Origin: a virus | Length of the DNA stretch: 35,666 nucleotides | Reading direction: 5' to 3' (one strand) | IMG/VR virus record: IMGVR_UViG_3300047409_000413 | Location: 1-35,666 of that record | In this document: piece by piece, positions 22,001 to 33,727 of the stretch | Layout: each line of letters opens with the position of its first letter | Position numbering within the stretch: position 1 is the stretch's first letter | The notes under the pieces: model-generated | Told to the model about the DNA's origin: nothing | The model's input: only the letters and a program-made list of their open reading frames with translations | The model's database searches: none | Program-made: the position numbers and the translations under genes

Positions 22001-22356
22001 GCGCTCACCGTCGCTTTGCGAATAATGTCGTCGATCTCGGATGCGTGATTGAGTGCTCGGCGTGATGTGGGAGAAGCATCTGGCGCTCCGTCGCCGATAC
22101 CGTCCAGCCACTCATAGAGTTCTTCGAGTTTGGCCAGCATATCCGGAGCGGCTGCGATAAGGCGGGCGTTGGGAACTGCTGCATCGTCTGGCGCGCGGTA
22201 ATTGACCAAACAAATATCGGCTTTATCGTCGCGTACAATCGGACAAAGGCTTTCTATTTCACCAGCGTGCCAAGGCCCAGGAGAATGTCGTATCACTATT
22301 TTTTGTGAGCTAGCCAATTCTGCGCTGGCCATACCGCGGCTGATTTCTGAGTTCAT
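21997..22356 (-). CDS. Conserved small phage protein of the 'NARLIAAAPDML' type
   Basis: The protein is 119 residues from the ATG at 22356, which has GGGAGGT 4 nt upstream and overlaps the preceding stop (ATGA). It has the combination HSPGPWHAGE ... VPNARLIAAAPDMLAKLEEL found in many small phage proteins from early regions. Their function is not established. The C-terminus is acidic and helical. Confidence 0.7.
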   Translation of the reverse strand: MNSEISRGMASAELASSQKIVIRHSPGPWHAGEIESLCPIVRDDKADICLVNYRAPDDAAVPNARLIAAAPDMLAKLEELYEWLDGIGDGAPDASPTSRRALNHASEIDDIIRKATVSA

Positions 22357-22565
22357 GCTGACCTCCCGTACACAGTCTTGACTTCTTTCCACATTCCGAA
22401 GCGCTCTAGAATCGCTGGCCCAGGGTCGCGCCGACCGAGGTACAAGTCAGACAAGTAGGAAACCGAGACACCAATATCCTTGGCGAATGTCCGCAGACTC
22501 CGCTTGCCCTGCTCTTTCTTGAGGAACCGGATGATGCCGTCCCGTGTGATGGTCTTTATTGCCAT
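22353..22565 (-). CDS. XRE/Cro-type helix-turn-helix regulator
   Basis: The protein is 70 residues from the ATG at 22565. The core DGIIRFLKKEQGKRSLRTFA then KDIGVSVSYLSDLYLGRRDP fits a five-helix XRE DNA-binding domain with the recognition helix near SVSYLSDLY. There is no C-terminal dimerisation/cleavage domain, so it resembles Cro or a small repressor rather than full CI. A sigma70-type promoter ends right at the ATG and an exact palindrome covers it, so autoregulation of a leaderless mRNA is likely. It probably controls the switch of the leftward block. Confidence 0.75.
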   Translation of the reverse strand: MAIKTITRDGIIRFLKKEQGKRSLRTFAKDIGVSVSYLSDLYLGRRDPGPAILERFGMWKEVKTVYGRSA

Positions 22566-22601
22566 GTCCGCAATGTACGCCTGTGCGCGGACACCTGTCA
22601 A
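22565..22601 (-). promoter_or_regulatory. Promoter with palindromic operator of the XRE gene
   Basis: On the minus strand TTGACA (22596-22601) is followed after 18 nt by TACATT (22572-22577), then the ATG at 22565, about where transcription should start. TGTCCGC (22565-22571 on the plus strand) and GCGGACA (22587-22593) form an exact 7-bp inverted repeat spaced by 15 nt, spanning the -10 and start site. This is the expected layout of an autoregulatory operator of a small phage repressor. Confidence 0.6.
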
Positions 22602-24666: not shown

Positions 24667-24680
24667 GTAACACGTGCAAC
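24667..24680 (-). promoter_or_regulatory. Candidate operator site A (GTTGCACGTGTTAC)
   Basis: This 14-bp element, GTTGCACGTGTTAC on the minus strand, lies about 30 nt upstream of the ATPase start. It matches two similar elements near 24.9 kb (12/14 with site C and 11/14 with site B). The core CACGTG is self-complementary. The repetition suggests binding of one regulator at both leftward and rightward control points. Confidence 0.4.
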
Positions 24681-24682
24681 AT

Positions 24683-24874
24683 TCACTTGTCAATAACCAT
24701 GTTTTTAACGACTTCTCTTAGCATTAACAGTTCTTCTTTGCGTTTGGCGCGGAATCCGCGCTGATAGGTCGCGTGACAGTCGCGGCAGTATCGCTGCCCT
24801 TTCATCCTGGCTTCGGCGCCGCACTTTGAGCATTGTCCATTGCGGACTCGCGGCGGCATACCTTTAAGCATCAT
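24683..24874 (-). CDS. Small zinc-finger phage protein
   Basis: The protein has 63 residues from 24874; in-frame ATGs at 24871 and 24859 are alternatives. The core CSKCGAEARMKGQRYCRDCH is a clear C-x2-C ... C-x2-C zinc site, followed by a basic helix. It is a frequent type of tiny phage protein. It is the first gene of the leftward block, divergent from the plus-strand genes, and its start lies near the end of a possible promoter, so its mRNA may be nearly leaderless. Confidence 0.65.
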   Translation of the reverse strand: MMLKGMPPRVRNGQCSKCGAEARMKGQRYCRDCHATYQRGFRAKRKEELLMLREVVKNMVIDK

Positions 24875-24883
24875 GCAACATTA

Positions 24884-24924
24884 GTAACACGCGGAACGTT
24901 GACAACTCAAGATGCACGTGCAAC
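24884..24924. promoter_or_regulatory. Candidate operator sites B and C in the divergent control region
   Basis: Site C (24884-24897, GTTCCGCGTGTTAC on the minus strand) and site B (24911-24924, GTTGCACGTGCATC on the minus strand) lie between the two diverging genes. Site B includes the perfect 10-bp palindrome TGCACGTGCA (24913-24922), placed in the spacer of the rightward promoter. Together with site A they look like a multi-site operator for a dyad-binding regulator. Confidence 0.45.
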
Positions 24925-24927
24925 AAT
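24899..24927 (+). promoter_or_regulatory. Rightward promoter
   Basis: TTGACA (24899-24904) is followed by a 17-nt spacer and AACAAT (24922-24927, 4 of 6). Transcription would begin near 24934, only about 3 nt before the ATG at 24937, giving a nearly leaderless mRNA. A -35-like TTGTCA of the leftward promoter overlaps it on the other strand (24900-24905), so the two promoters are back to back. Confidence 0.5.
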
Positions 24928-25092: not shown

Positions 25093-25128
25093 AAGTAACT
25101 GCCTAGTTTTCCACCGATATTAACACTT

Positions 25129-25153
25129 GCTAACAGTTAGCATGTGTGCTAAC
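25129..25153. promoter_or_regulatory. GTTAGC inverted repeats at the initiator promoter
   Basis: GCTAAC (25129-25134), GTTAGC (25136-25141) and GCTAAC (25148-25153) form two overlapping palindromes, including GTTAGCATGTGTGCTAAC with exact 7-bp arms. A -10-like TATTAT follows at 25154-25159, so the repeats cover the promoter spacer of the initiator gene. The same GTTAGC element recurs inside that gene as direct repeats. This is the pattern of an initiator that represses its own promoter. Confidence 0.55.
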
Positions 25154-25163
25154 TATTATTCGC

Positions 25164-25766
25164 GTGACATTCACCAAGCTTTTCAGTTCGATAACTGAAT
25201 CGACGATCTGGTGCGAAGATGATCGCACTCGAATTGTGTGGATAACCATGCTTGCCATGGCGAACAAAAACGGCTTTGTATTTGGATCCGCTCCTGGGCT
25301 GGCAAATCGTGCGCGCGTTCCAGTTCAGGCTGTCCGTGTAGCTTTGGCGAAATTCCAACAACCGGACCCGGACAGTAGGACAAAGGACTTTGAGGGGCGC
25401 CGCATTGCCGAAATTGATGGCGGCTGGAAGCTTCTAACTTACGATAAACATAGGTCTATTCGTGACGAGGAAGAACGCAAAGAGTATATGAAGAATCTCA
25501 TGCGCCAGAAACGAGCGGCTGTTAGCAACGTTAGCCACCGTAAGCCACTGTTAGCCCAAGCAGAAGCAGATACAGAAGCAGAAGCAGTAAGTCAAAACCT
25601 ACGCGCTAGCGCGCGATTTTCCAAATCTAAAATCGATCTTACCCATTTGGCAAACCCTAACTGCACCGTCTGCGTGGGATCAGGATATAGGAGAAGTTAT
25701 TCCAATCCCAAGAAAGAAGAACCGTGCGAGTGTGCGGCGCCGGATGCTTCTTGGAAGTCGGAGTGA
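25164..25766 (+). CDS. Putative replication initiator (winged-helix N-terminus, iteron-bearing linker)
   Basis: The protein is 200 residues from the GTG at 25164 (in-frame GTG at 25146 adds six). The N-terminal ~110 residues (TKLFSSITESTIWCEDDRTR, IVWITMLAMANKNGFVFGSA, PGLANRARVPVQAVRVALAK) have the shape of the helical DNA-binding domain found in phage replication proteins. A low-complexity linker follows (residues ~120-145), exactly where the DNA shows four phased GTTAGC-type repeats. The C-terminus has a possible zinc site (NCTVCVGSGYRRS ... CEC). Lambda O likewise carries its origin inside its gene. No helicase or primase gene is seen nearby, so host enzymes would be recruited. A transcription factor is the alternative. 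Confidence 0.6.
   Translation: MTFTKLFSSITESTIWCEDDRTRIVWITMLAMANKNGFVFGSAPGLANRARVPVQAVRVALAKFQQPDPDSRTKDFEGRRIAEIDGGWKLLTYDKHRSIRDEEERKEYMKNLMRQKRAAVSNVSHRKPLLAQAEADTEAEAVSQNLRASARFSKSKIDLTHLANPNCTVCVGSGYRRSYSNPKKEEPCECAAPDASWKSE
25521..25555. repeat. Iteron-like direct repeats (putative origin)
   Basis: GTTAGC at 25521, GTTAGC at 25530, GTAAGC at 25540 and GTTAGC at 25550 are spaced 9, 10 and 10 bp, close to one helical turn, with shared CCAC-type flanks. They lie in the linker region of the putative initiator. Similar phased repeats form the origins of lambda and iteron plasmids. Confidence 0.5.
25602..25640. other. Perfect 12-bp palindrome followed by AT-rich stretch (putative origin part)
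   Basis: CGCGCTAGCGCG (25602-25613) is a perfect palindrome. It is followed by an AT-rich stretch (25616-25640, with ATTTTCCAAATCTAAAAT). It lies about 50 bp downstream of the direct repeats and still inside the initiator gene. This order, repeats then palindrome then AT-rich DNA, is what an unwinding origin would show. Confidence 0.35.
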
Positions 25767-26683: not shown

Positions 26684-27564
26684 AAGGTTACAAAGGTTTT
26701 GATAAAGACTTCCGCTGCAAAGATCAGCAGTACGAAGTCGGCAAAGAAGTGACTCACGAAGGCAAGCTGGAACTGTGCTCCTCTGGGCTGCACTTCTGCG
26801 AAAACCCACTGGATACACTGCGCTACTACCAGCCAGCATCTAGCCGCTATGCCGAAGTTGAGGCGGAAGGCGTAGCCGAGCAAAAGTCGGAAGATTCTAA
26901 GCGAGTCGCCAAGAAGTTGAAGATCATGGCGGAAGTTAAGCTATCTTCGCTGATTCAATTGGGCGTCAAGTTCCTTCTCAATAAGTCAGAGAAGCCTGTT
27001 ACCGCGACCAGCGGGAACTCTTCGCCCGCCGCGACCAGCGGGAACTCTTCGCACGCCGCGACCAGCGGGGACTCTTCGCCCGCCGCGACCAGCGGGTACT
27101 CTTCGCCCGCCGCGACCAGCGGGAACTCTTCGCCCGCCGCGACCAGCGGGAACTATTCGCCCGCCGCGACCAGCGGGAACTCTTCGCCCGCCGCGACCAG
27201 CGGGAACTCTTCGCCCGCCGCGACCAGCGGGTACTCTTCGCACGCCGCGACCAGCGGGGACTATTCGCCCGCCGCGACCAGCGGGAACTCTTCGCCCGCC
27301 GCGACCAGCGGGAACTATTCGCCCGCCGCGACCAGCGGGAACTCTTCGCACGCCGCGACCAGCGGGGACGAGTCCATTGCTGCTGCTATCGGCAGAGAAG
27401 CCACAGCCAAAGCCGCGAAAGGTAACTGGATTGTCCTCGCAGAGTACGAGCCGGATTCGGCCAAAGTGCGGACAGTAAAAACAGTGAAAGTGGACGGCAA
27501 GAAGATCAAAGCTGACACGTTTTATAAGCTGAAAAAGGGAAAGTTTGTAATTGCGGGGGCGTAG
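26680..27564 (+). CDS. DUF7666-type protein with 14 tandem 9-residue repeats
   Basis: This 294-residue protein starts at a GTG overlapping the preceding stop. Residues 1-65 (KGYKGFDKDFRCKDQQYEVG, then HEGKLELCSSGLHFCENPLD) match the small DUF7666-like domain seen in many phages. Residues ~108-233 are 14 units of consensus A-A-T-S-G-[NDY]-[SY]-S-[PH], likely a beta-solenoid or extended surface. The C-terminal 60 residues (TAKAAKGNWIVLAEYE ... GKKIKADTFYKLKKGKFVIA) form a beta domain found after such repeats in related proteins. The biochemical role is unknown. Confidence 0.7.
   Translation: MKGYKGFDKDFRCKDQQYEVGKEVTHEGKLELCSSGLHFCENPLDTLRYYQPASSRYAEVEAEGVAEQKSEDSKRVAKKLKIMAEVKLSSLIQLGVKFLLNKSEKPVTATSGNSSPAATSGNSSHAATSGDSSPAATSGYSSPAATSGNSSPAATSGNYSPAATSGNSSPAATSGNSSPAATSGYSSHAATSGDYSPAATSGNSSPAATSGNYSPAATSGNSSHAATSGDESIAAAIGREATAKAAKGNWIVLAEYEPDSAKVRTVKTVKVDGKKIKADTFYKLKKGKFVIAGA
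27001..27378. repeat. 27-bp tandem repeat, 13 full units plus one diverged unit
   Basis: Thirteen units of 27 bp (27001-27351) and a diverged fourteenth (27352-27378) encode the 9-residue repeats. Apart from the first codon of unit 1, only three bases vary among the 13 units: position 1 of codon 6 (A, G or T), position 2 of codon 7 (C or A) and position 2 of codon 9 (C or A). Synonymous positions are otherwise identical, showing recent expansion or gene conversion. Confidence 0.9.
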
Positions 27565-27570
27565 GTTCCG

Positions 27571-28305
27571 GTGCTCACACAGCCTAGAATGCTCGATTTG
27601 TTTTGCGGACGCTTAGGTGTGGCGAAAGTGTTTGCCGCACGCGGTTGGAAATGCGTCGTGGTCGACTTGGTAGAGCCACCCGAGATTCCACCGGGGTGCA
27701 CGTTTATACAGGCTAATGTTTTGAACATCAGGGTCGGCAGTTTGTTCGGAAAACCGCTTATTACCTATGTTCGAGATGCCAAACTTTCCGAACTATTTGC
27801 GGAAGACTTCGATTTCATCTGGGCTAGTTCGCCCTGCGAGGAGTTCTCGGTGCACGGCATGAAATGTTTTCACCCGAATCCGAAGTATCCCGAGAACGGA
27901 ATCCGACTGTTCAATCACACGCGGGAAATCTGCGAAGCATCAGGAGTGACATATGTCATGGAGAACGTTCGCGCCGCGCAACAGTTTGTAGGTAAGGCGG
28001 TACATCATTGCGGCCCGTACTATTTGTGGGGAAGCGGAGTGCCACCCCTCATGCATCAGGGGATTACGAAACCGTTTCGCGCCGCATCTGGAAGCTATAT
28101 GGACAAATGCCCGCCAGGTTACGACCGCAAGAAATGGCGGATGCTTTGGCAGAAGGACTTCGAGAATAGGGCCGGCAGCAGGAAAGATTGCCCAGGAGTC
28201 GCGGCCACGATTCCGCCAGAGCTAGCCAATTGTGTTGCGGATTACGCGGAAAGACTTCTGGAAATGAAAGTGGGAGGATCGTGGCCTGCCACGAAAGCCG
28301 GCTAG
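27571..28305 (+). CDS. Cytosine-5 DNA methyltransferase-like protein
   Basis: This 244-residue protein starts at a GTG at 27571, with an in-frame ATG at 27589. Motif I-like RMLDLFCGRLGVAKVFAARG, the catalytic SSPCEEFSVHG (87-97, Cys89) and VMENVRAA (motif VI ENV) fit C5 methyltransferases. The target-recognition part is short and the second half of motif I is altered (GRLGVA instead of GAGG), so activity is likely but specificity is unknown. It may protect phage DNA from host restriction. It is the first of four methyltransferases in this block. Confidence 0.75.
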   Translation: MLTQPRMLDLFCGRLGVAKVFAARGWKCVVVDLVEPPEIPPGCTFIQANVLNIRVGSLFGKPLITYVRDAKLSELFAEDFDFIWASSPCEEFSVHGMKCFHPNPKYPENGIRLFNHTREICEASGVTYVMENVRAAQQFVGKAVHHCGPYYLWGSGVPPLMHQGITKPFRAASGSYMDKCPPGYDRKKWRMLWQKDFENRAGSRKDCPGVAATIPPELANCVADYAERLLEMKVGGSWPATKAG

Positions 28306-28363: not shown

Positions 28364-29299
28364 ATGGTGAGTAATTTGACAGACGAGTACACACGCGAGG
28401 AATTTGAGTGGGATAGATTCGGTACGGCGGGGCCGATTACGCCGGAACGGCCGATTCTGCGATACCACGGTGGAAAGTGGAAGTTAGCTCCGTGGATCAT
28501 CAGCCATTTCCCTCCGCATCGTGTTTACGTCGAGCCATACGGCGGTGCTGCCAGCGTTTTGATGCAGAAGCCACGAAGCTATGCCGAGATTTACAACGAT
28601 CTGGATGGGGAGCTGGTGAACTTATTCCGCGTGGCGCGAGATCGTGGGAGTGAATTAAGTAAGGCCTTAGGCTTGACGCCCTTCTCGCGCACCGATTACC
28701 GCGAGAGTTTCGAGACGTGCGAGGATCCTTTAGAGCAAGCGCGGCGTACAACGGTGCGGTCATTTATGGGATTCGGTTCTAACGCCCTCTGCCGCAATAT
28801 CCAGAGCGGGTTTCGGTCAAACTCGAATCGCAGTGGCACAACGCCCGGCCATGATTGGGCGAACTTTCCCGAAGCCCTGCAACTGATAATCAGCAGACTC
28901 CGCGCCGTGGTGATCGAGAACCGTGATGCAATGGAAGTCTGCCTGCGGCATGACGGGCCGGATACGCTGCACTACTGCGACCCGCCTTATGTGCACGATA
29001 CGCGCAGCTCGAAAGTCCACGGCCATCACGGTTACAACTTTGAGATGAGCGACGAGCAACACTGCGAAATGGCGGAAGTCCTCCGCGAACTCAAGGGAGT
29101 CGTGATTATTTCCGGCTATGCCTGTCAGCTCTACGATGAACAACTTTTCCCCGACTGGCATCGCGTGGAACGTGCGGCACTCGCGGACGGGGCGCTGGAC
29201 AGAACGGAAGTGCTCTGGATGAATCGGCAGCTACAGACCCAGGGAGTGATGGCGTTCGGAGAAACCAGCCAGGAGCAAACAGACGTGAGGAGATGGTGA
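28364..29299 (+). CDS. D12-class N6-adenine DNA methyltransferase, copy 1
   Basis: This 311-residue protein has the Dam-type pattern: YHGGKWKLAPWI (34-45, SAM binding), YVEPYGGAASVLMQKP (55-70) and YCDPPYVHDTR (204-214, catalytic DPPY). The start ATG follows GGGAG. It ends in a tail that overlaps the next gene by 7 nt. The product should methylate adenine in an unknown site. It is closely paralogous to the following gene, including the RSFMGFGS and NSNRSGTTP segments. Confidence 0.85.
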   Translation: MVSNLTDEYTREEFEWDRFGTAGPITPERPILRYHGGKWKLAPWIISHFPPHRVYVEPYGGAASVLMQKPRSYAEIYNDLDGELVNLFRVARDRGSELSKALGLTPFSRTDYRESFETCEDPLEQARRTTVRSFMGFGSNALCRNIQSGFRSNSNRSGTTPGHDWANFPEALQLIISRLRAVVIENRDAMEVCLRHDGPDTLHYCDPPYVHDTRSSKVHGHHGYNFEMSDEQHCEMAEVLRELKGVVIISGYACQLYDEQLFPDWHRVERAALADGALDRTEVLWMNRQLQTQGVMAFGETSQEQTDVRRW

Positions 29300-30216
29300 G
29301 AACTTTAACTCCAACACGGCCGATACTTCGCTACCACGGCGGAAAATGGTTGCTTGCGGATTGGCTGATCGGATTCTTTCCTGCCCACCGGGTCTATGTG
29401 GAACCTTACGGCGGCGCGGCATCGGTCTTGTTGCAAAAGCCGCGCAGTTACGCGGAGGTTTACAACGATCTCGACGAAGAAGTAGTAAATCTCTTTCGCG
29501 TGGCGCGGGAACGCGGAGACGAATTGCAGCGGGCGTTGACGCTGACCCCGTTTGCTAGGCAGGAATACGAGGAGGCGTGGCATCCGTCTAATGACCCGCT
29601 AGAACAGGCCCGCAGAACGGTTATCAGATCCTTCATGGGTTTCGGGTCTGCGGCAGTCACCATGAAGCGAAGGAATGGAACCAAAGGCGGACAGCCGGGG
29701 ACTGGCTTCCGCGCGAATTCCAATCGCTCAGGCACTACGCCAGCGCATGACTGGCGCAACTATGCTGGCACTGGATTCAGGACGTACACAGGAGACAACC
29801 GCCAAACTATTCCGTCAAAGGACTGGGAAACATTCGGGGCTGCACTCGCGCCGATTATCGAGCGGCTACGCGGAGTGGTGATCGAAAACAAGGACGCCTT
29901 CGAGGTGATGAGAGATCACGATTGCTCTCAGGCGTTGCATTACGTTGATCCGCCATACCCACTGGAAACGAGAGACGCCGGCGTGGATTATCGCTATGAA
30001 ATGACCAGCGATCAACACCGCGAGCTGGCTGGCTTCCTCGGAACATTACAAGGCGCGGTTGTCATTAGCGGCTATCCCTGCGATCTGTACGAGGAGATAT
30101 TCTCTGGCTGGGTGAGGAGAGAAAAGGCTGCACTGGCAGACGGCGCTCGAGCTCGAGTGGAAGTTGTTTGGTTGAATCACAAAGCTAGCCAGCACACGAG
30201 AGGGCTTTTTGGGTAA
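29293..30216 (+). CDS. D12-class N6-adenine DNA methyltransferase, copy 2
   Basis: This 307-residue paralog of the preceding gene has YHGGKWLLADWL (14-25), YVEPYGGAASVLLQKP (35-50) and YVDPPYPLETR (217-227). It differs by an insertion where GTGFRANSNRSGTTPAHDW is followed directly by a similar GTGFRTYTGDNRQTIPSKDW, an internal duplication of about 23 residues in the specificity region. It has a stretch of RNGTKGGQ not present in copy 1. Both genes start with GAGATGGTGAG, consistent with tandem gene duplication and divergence of target site. Confidence 0.85.
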   Translation: MVRTLTPTRPILRYHGGKWLLADWLIGFFPAHRVYVEPYGGAASVLLQKPRSYAEVYNDLDEEVVNLFRVARERGDELQRALTLTPFARQEYEEAWHPSNDPLEQARRTVIRSFMGFGSAAVTMKRRNGTKGGQPGTGFRANSNRSGTTPAHDWRNYAGTGFRTYTGDNRQTIPSKDWETFGAALAPIIERLRGVVIENKDAFEVMRDHDCSQALHYVDPPYPLETRDAGVDYRYEMTSDQHRELAGFLGTLQGAVVISGYPCDLYEEIFSGWVRREKAALADGARARVEVVWLNHKASQHTRGLFG

Positions 30217-32804: not shown

Positions 32805-33062
32805 ATGAGCACTTGGACAAAAGTTTCTGAGCGAATGCCAGAGGGCGAGGGCAAATTCTGGGTATGGCTAGTACCACACAAACCACAGCCTAGCAGCCTT
32901 GATCCGGGAGATTTGGTATTCCTCAATTTCCCGCCACACGCCGAAATTGTTAGTACATGGCGCGACAAGCATGGCAATAAACGATTCAATTGTGGAGCGG
33001 TGCAATTACCGACTCATTGGATGCCGCTACCGGAGCCGCCTTGTGCGGATGAGACGCGATGA
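32805..33062 (+). CDS. DUF551-like small protein
   Basis: This 85-residue protein begins STWTKVSERMPEGEGKFWVW and ends PTHWMPLPEPP, the two hallmark ends of DUF551 proteins of phages. GGGGAG is upstream of the ATG. DUF551 function is not established; the '.THWMPLP' end is a widespread signature. Its stop overlaps the next ATG. Confidence 0.75.
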   Translation: MSTWTKVSERMPEGEGKFWVWLVPHKPQPSSLDPGDLVFLNFPPHAEIVSTWRDKHGNKRFNCGAVQLPTHWMPLPEPPCADETR

Positions 33063-33087
33063 CCGCGCCATCCTCAAAGCGGGAGAG
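33055..33087 (+). repeat. 33-bp direct repeat, left copy
   Basis: This segment covers the start codon of the cytosine methyltransferase gene and its first nine codons (MTAPSSKRE). It is identical to 33720-33752. The pair flanks the methyltransferase gene exactly, suggesting module insertion or duplication by recombination. Confidence 0.85.
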
Positions 33088-33727
33088 GGAGAGGAAGCCA
33101 CGAAAGGTGCTAGACCTGTTCTGCGGAGCGGGTGGGGCTGCAATGGGCTTGCATCGGGAGTGGCCGAACGCAGAGATAGTGGGAGTGGACATCAATCCTC
33201 AGCCAAGGTATCCGTTTACGTTTATTCAGGGAGACGCAATGCAATTCCTCCGAAGTCAGGAGGTTGACGACTTCGATTTCGTCTGGGCCTCTCCGCCATG
33301 TCAACGTTATACGCAAATGTTGAATCACGGCCTCACTGATCGCAATAAGCACCCTGATTTTATAGCCATAGTGCGTGAATATCTGTGGGAGGTTTACCCA
33401 GAACACGTCATCGAAAACGTCGCAGGCGCACCGCTAAAGAACACAACAATGCTCTGCGGCCTAATGTTCGGCCTACAAACACTAAGGCATCGCTTCTTTG
33501 AATGCTCTTTTACGGTTCATTCACCGTTTCATCCAAGGCACAATGGCAGAGGGATTCGCAATCAGAAAGACGGCGGAACTTACTATCGTTGCTACGGCCA
33601 TGAGACAGGGAAGCGGGAATGGGGGAAGGCGATGGGAATTGATTGGATGAAAACGCCGGAACTAGCACAGGCAATTCCACCGGCGTATTCACAGTACATT
33701 GCGAAACAGTTCGAGTGTGCGCGATGA
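33059..33727 (+). CDS. Cytosine-5 DNA methyltransferase-like protein, second copy type
   Basis: This 222-residue protein has motif I KVLDLFCGAGGAAMGLHREW (17-36), motif II VGVDINP, catalytic ASPPCQRYTQ (77-86, Cys81) and VIENVAGAPL (motif VI). It is a compact C5 methyltransferase, of a type frequent in phages, with a small target-recognition region (FFECSFTVHSPFHP). It is only distantly similar to the one at 27571. It probably modifies phage DNA against host restriction. Its start lies within a 33-bp repeat. Confidence 0.8.
   Translation: MTAPSSKRERERKPRKVLDLFCGAGGAAMGLHREWPNAEIVGVDINPQPRYPFTFIQGDAMQFLRSQEVDDFDFVWASPPCQRYTQMLNHGLTDRNKHPDFIAIVREYLWEVYPEHVIENVAGAPLKNTTMLCGLMFGLQTLRHRFFECSFTVHSPFHPRHNGRGIRNQKDGGTYYRCYGHETGKREWGKAMGIDWMKTPELAQAIPPAYSQYIAKQFECAR

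Follow-up and report, generated by a model that had tools for sequence, protein, structure and literature searches.

Our analysis of a 35,666-nucleotide phage sequence (hereafter the window) indicates that the DNA in and just upstream of one small gene is probably an intragenic iteron origin combined with autorepression of the kind used by iteron plasmids; observed directly are the elements, their arrangement, word matching across the family, constraint at the DNA level and a replication-type context, and from these we infer that the protein binds its sites, represses its gene and starts replication there, and what a repeat tract does. In the mechanism we propose, the four direct GTTAGC copies in the gene, phased at 9–10 bp, would be where the initiator assembles, and the adjacent (GCAGAA)-type tract where the DNA opens and the helicase is loaded. 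Accumulating product would then bind the inverted promoter copies, GTTAGC-N6-GCTAAC, and shut off its own gene (Table 1). Two textbook logics, an in-gene origin and iteron-type autorepression, would thus be united in one phage module, and the family-wide pattern behind this reading is more interesting than the single locus in the window.

Table 1 Features of the initiator locus in the window
Feature	Position	Strand	Basis or remark
Putative promoter under half-sites, TTGCTA-17-TAACTA or CTAACA-18-TATTAT	25127..25159	+	Sequence reading, consensus scan
Third promoter half-site GCTAAC	25129..25134	-	1 bp from core repeat
Core operator-like inverted repeat GTTAGC-N6-GCTAAC	25136..25153	.	Sequence; geometry common in relatives
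Initiator gene, 200 aa, GTG start, possibly leaderless	25164..25766	+	Start aligned with relatives; winged-helix model
Winged-helix domain, residues 4–92	25173..25439	+	AlphaFold2, pLDDT >90 for nearly all
Basic-helix codons, residues 99–112, tracking word	25458..25499	+	Partial Mantel p = 0.002, 0.001, 0.002; nearest-neighbour test
Iteron 1 GTTAGC	25521..25526	+	Exact site
Iteron 2 GTTAGC	25530..25535	+	Exact site
Iteron 3 GTAAGC	25540..25545	+	One change; other reading frame
Iteron 4 GTTAGC	25550..25555	+	Other reading frame; 4 bp before tract
(NCAGAN)n strand-asymmetric tract, putative opening/helicase-loading element	25560..25589	+	Relatives; codon bias; other frames/strands
Hairpin CGCGCtagcGCGCG after tract	25602..25615	.	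Window p = 0.05, borderline
AT-rich DNA after hairpin	25616..25640	.	Window sequence only

Two clusters of one hexamer

Exact copies of GTTAGC/GCTAAC lie at 25129(-), 25136(+) and 25148(-) at the promoter and at 25521(+), 25530(+) and 25550(+) in the gene, where a one-change copy, GTAAGC at 25540(+), completes the cluster. This confirms the original prediction of three promoter copies and four gene copies, one of them degenerate. The promoter copies are adjacent half-sites that form both GCTAAC-a-GTTAGC and GTTAGC-N6-GCTAAC, while the gene copies repeat directly at intervals of 9, 10 and 10 bp and do not all share a reading frame. The word is not enriched across the window (17 sites against 12.7 expected); what sets it apart is the two clusters. 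Two such places less than 1 kb apart, each packing three or more non-overlapping copies of one hexamer into 40 bp, are found at this locus alone in the window, and in none of 200 first-order Markov windows. The divergent intergenic region at 24675–24925 carries TGCAACA three times on one strand (24675, 24874 and 24919), twice as CGTGCAACA; the motif shows no window-wide enrichment, and the trio is possibly a second operator set.

A word shared by promoter and gene

Relatives were compared in a first set of 83 non-redundant family members, window included, and in a held-out set of 95 more, none above 90% identity to any other member and none used in pattern discovery. Across both sets, every phage uses a GTNNNN word of its own, present as direct repeats in the gene and as an inverted repeat at the promoter. 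Hexamer sharing between a member's own promoter and linker was 19.2 in the first set, compared with 9.6 ± 0.66 after promoters and linkers were reshuffled among members (z = 14.5), and the match recurred in the held-out set (z = 12.1). Controls gave z = 1.5 and 2.9 for far-upstream DNA in the two sets and z = 3.7 and 5.5 for promoter versus gene body; since the latter exceed permutation, a minor share of the signal reflects lineage composition. Tested against a synonymous-codon null, sharing between linker and promoter was significantly higher (p < 0.05) in 45 of 82 members, the window among them (p = 0.006). We counted 29 distinct words with three or more exact copies in the linker. Two or more exact linker copies together with a matching promoter copy were present in 48 of the first 83 members and missing from about 40%, in some cases because another gene lies just upstream.

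Linker copies are almost all direct, and 72 of their 143 spacings measure 9 or 10 bp; another cluster of spacings falls at 19–21. The promoter inverted repeat has a commonest offset of 12 bp (GTnnnn-N6-nnnnAC) regardless of word, seen in 19 of the 39 members having such a repeat (one repeat in far-upstream control DNA) and in 14 of 31 held-out members with a repeat (two in control DNA); GTTAGCATGTGTGCTAAC in the window has exactly this form. The last exact linker copy tends to end about 5, 15, 25 or 36 bp before the tract, as if the gap were filled by degenerate copies. The division of labour originally proposed, inverted promoter repeats for autorepression and direct gene repeats for replication, is supported by this comparison, in which words co-change, linker copies are direct and promoter pairs are mostly inverted.

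Loss of the repeats in close relatives had been named beforehand as evidence against the prediction. In the closest relative (L002, winged-helix domain 74% identical) the GTTAGC letters are indeed absent from the region, but the promoter–gene pairing is kept, with GTAAAC in the gene and its reverse complement GTTTAC at the promoter. A conservation test based on letters misfires here because L002 swaps the word at both places, and words changing together in both places appear to be the expected evolution of a protein and its binding sites.

A candidate specificity helix

In the AlphaFold2 model of the window protein, a long helix (residues 93–154) follows the winged helix. With overall identity controlled for, word similarity associates with residues 93–117, above all with column 109, and in held-out members with residues 99–112 (partial r = 0.40, p = 0.001). 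The classical recognition helix, H3, shows no association with the word and was rejected as specificity determinant. Words and helices pair as GTGGAC with RRAYKTEKQREYR, GTAGAN with ESKRxYINxRRA, and GTCCCG with EYERxRKRxQR. These associations fit a role for the basic helix after the wing as the specificity helix.

Co-inheritance is a confounder, because the helix segment is encoded beside the iterons. Words taken from the promoter only, 300 bp away, associated with the helix in 64 members (p = 0.001); the corresponding values were p = 0.11 in the first 36 and p = 0.43 after thinning to 33. The association is lost on thinning, so helix and adjacent iterons may be co-inherited. Word specificity that diverges rapidly and co-evolves with its sites is the best explanation of these comparisons. 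We offer only tentatively the broader generalization that a large, mostly uncultured initiator family reads a fast-changing hexamer through its post-wing basic helix, that the helix codons and the iterons directly beside them form a mobile specificity cassette to which the promoter operator co-adapts, and that the (NCAGAN)n tract is a new strand-specific opening or helicase-loading element embedded in coding sequence. Apart from this generalization, specificity in the module appears to diversify while the sites in both places follow suit, and the approximately 29 words with their proteins offer a natural data set for decoding protein–DNA recognition. The pattern also allows origins to be predicted, from the sequence only, in many uncultured phages.

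A conserved tract beside the iterons

A 30-bp [GA]CAGA[ATG] repeat follows the iterons in 73 of 83 members and 72 of 95 held-out members, and is of the GCAGAA type in the window. The original prediction had pointed instead to a 12-bp palindrome and AT-rich DNA. Both are present, but the more conserved downstream element appears to be this tract, which the prediction did not name, rather than the AT-rich DNA. The palindrome (CGCGCTAGCGCG, 25602–25613) belongs to the post-tract hairpin, and hairpins of varied sequence follow the tract above chance in many relatives (p < 0.05 in 32 of 76 members).

Codon choice in the tract differs sharply from that in the winged-helix domain (Ala as GCA, 94% versus 17%; Asp as GAT, 92% versus 36%; Thr as ACA, 83% versus 18%). 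One strand is 76% purine, and GC content is 48%, against 57% in the domain. The usual reading is AEAEAE, with QKQKQK, IQIQKQ, SRSKSR, PLPLPL or SASASG elsewhere. The tract stands in other frames or on the opposite strand in L030, L034, L064, L075, L105 and L115 and in held-out L202, L208 and L362, the opposite strand being used in L064, L075 and L115; its occurrence in other frames and strands argues for selection on the DNA and for the tract as a DNA element. In L075 and L115 the words keep their usual orientation though the tract is flipped, so the orientation of the tract is not strictly tied to that of the iterons. The CAGA tract would thus be an unrecognised DNA element that resembles a dull protein repeat.

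A scan for one exact tract sequence returned mostly unrelated low-complexity genes, so the tract letters alone are not diagnostic. Initiator-like ORFs in L124 and L136, whose proteins read ...NSPPNSPTNREGHSPPHSLEAEADTEAEAEKK, carry this identical tract behind a repeated linker, with a scant family match (E about 0.004), a hint that other phage initiator classes may use a similar layout.

Replication context of the initiator family

The family protein is likely a replication initiator, given the replication domains and gene neighbours of its members. Longer members carry a C-terminal Phg_2220_C domain, and the C-terminal parts of other longer members match PHROG 'replication initiation', 'O-like', 'DnaD-like helicase loader' or 'primosomal' families. 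DnaB-like helicases made up 5 of 10 downstream genes of family members scanned with Pfam, and DnaC-like loaders lie downstream in L018, L028 and L034. The window protein is without the long C-terminal domain, and no DnaB or loader gene was found adjoining its gene. It has no Pfam match and a weak match to PHROG 186 'DnaD-like helicase loader' (E = 5e-4). Among 80 family members, Pfam found Phage_rep_org_N in 2 and HTH_36 in 12, and neither an O-type N-terminal domain nor a plasmid Rep-family domain in any. Sequence and fold searches of the PDB returned generic winged helices only, and a PLSDB search with L002 gave no hit. The family's N-terminal part had no match in isolate phages or plasmids; isolate phages match mainly the C-terminal domains, and this winged-helix initiator family is found almost exclusively in metagenomic phages.

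A perfect DnaA box (TGTGGATAA, 25237–25245) lies inside conserved V-W-I-T codons and is probably a coding coincidence. Across 178 loci there were only 10 perfect boxes, partly coding coincidence, and conserved DnaA boxes are not favoured as an origin element.

Several other features of these genomes were recorded. L008 has, from 126 onward, a second gene of the initiator family beside the main match, which was excluded from statistics. The window encodes two adjoining D12-class N6-adenine methyltransferases (28364–30216; 55% identical to each other) and cytosine-methylase-like genes at 27571–28305 and 33059–33727, and a DUF7666 gene contains a 27-bp tandem repeat of 13.5 units (27002–27366) encoding SGNSSPAAT-type repeats.

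Alternative readings of the locus

The gene repeats might be no more than the coding trace of a low-complexity linker in the protein (VSNVS..., AEAEADTEAEA) and do nothing as DNA. The sites do lie in the linker, GTT AGC is read in frame as Val-Ser in two of the window's copies, and the window's hexamer-count excess alone is not significant (p = 0.16). We nevertheless regard this as highly improbable, given that linker copies spread over two or more frames in 46 of 49 members and match the promoter words, and that the tract's codon choice is extreme and its peptides diverse. A role as operators of another repressor that blocks transcription from sites at the promoter and in the gene, with no origin, is also very unlikely: inverted promoter repeats suit any dimeric repressor, and the phage encodes a small HTH_3 protein (22353–22601), but word identity follows part of the initiator's own sequence, the direct and phased array adjoins a conserved tract, and longer members have replication domains.

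Alternatively, the initiator could bind both sets while the array serves as a control locus for handcuffing or titration, the true origin lying elsewhere. Plasmid F offers a precedent in its regulatory iterons at incC besides oriS (PMC13028717), and GC skew has no clear minimum at the candidate origin, though gene direction confounds the skew and makes it uninformative. A single array with a strand-asymmetric tract at a phased distance behind it, and in many cases a hairpin, has the anatomy of an origin, however, and the lambda and SPP1 oriL layouts are similar; we consider a pure control locus unlikely and favour an intragenic origin with autorepression.

Comparison with known origins

In the literature searched, which was mostly without subscription papers and leaves absence unproven, we found no paper describing this combination in a phage, in keeping with the original prediction that it is undescribed, and none describing the (NCAGAN)n tract. 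Lambdoid origins lie inside gene O and combine iterons with an AT-rich tract (PMC7466680); the phage here likewise has a mid-gene iteron array followed by a putative unwinding region. Lambda differs in its longer iterons and AT-rich flank, whereas the tract here is 48% GC and asymmetric rather than AT-rich. Early transcription in lambda comes from pR, whereas here the initiator has a putative dedicated promoter. The lambda O N-terminal Pfam domain is undetected here, and only some C-terminal parts match 'O-like'.

SPP1 gp38/oriL also has direct repeats within the initiator gene (gene 38) beside an unwinding element. That element is AT-rich and SPP1 has a second origin, oriR; the review text consulted mentions no inverted repeat at the gene 38 promoter matching the iterons, unlike the arrangement here.

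Similarity to DNA unwinding in Bacillus subtilis (DnaA-trios, DnaD recognition element) lies in a strand-specific repeat placed right after the initiator boxes. The phage initiator is, in contrast, not AAA+, and TnnT opposite the tract is no denser than in shuffles (5.58 versus 5.59 per 30 nt), by which the DRE/TnnT analogy was rejected. RepE of plasmid F recognizes the oriS iterons as well as inverted repeats in its own promoter (PMC13028717). Iteron plasmids thus share with our phage the phased direct repeats for initiation and the inverted copies at the rep promoter, but their iterons lie outside rep and their initiators belong to another family, whereas here the array is carried by a phage, within the initiator gene.
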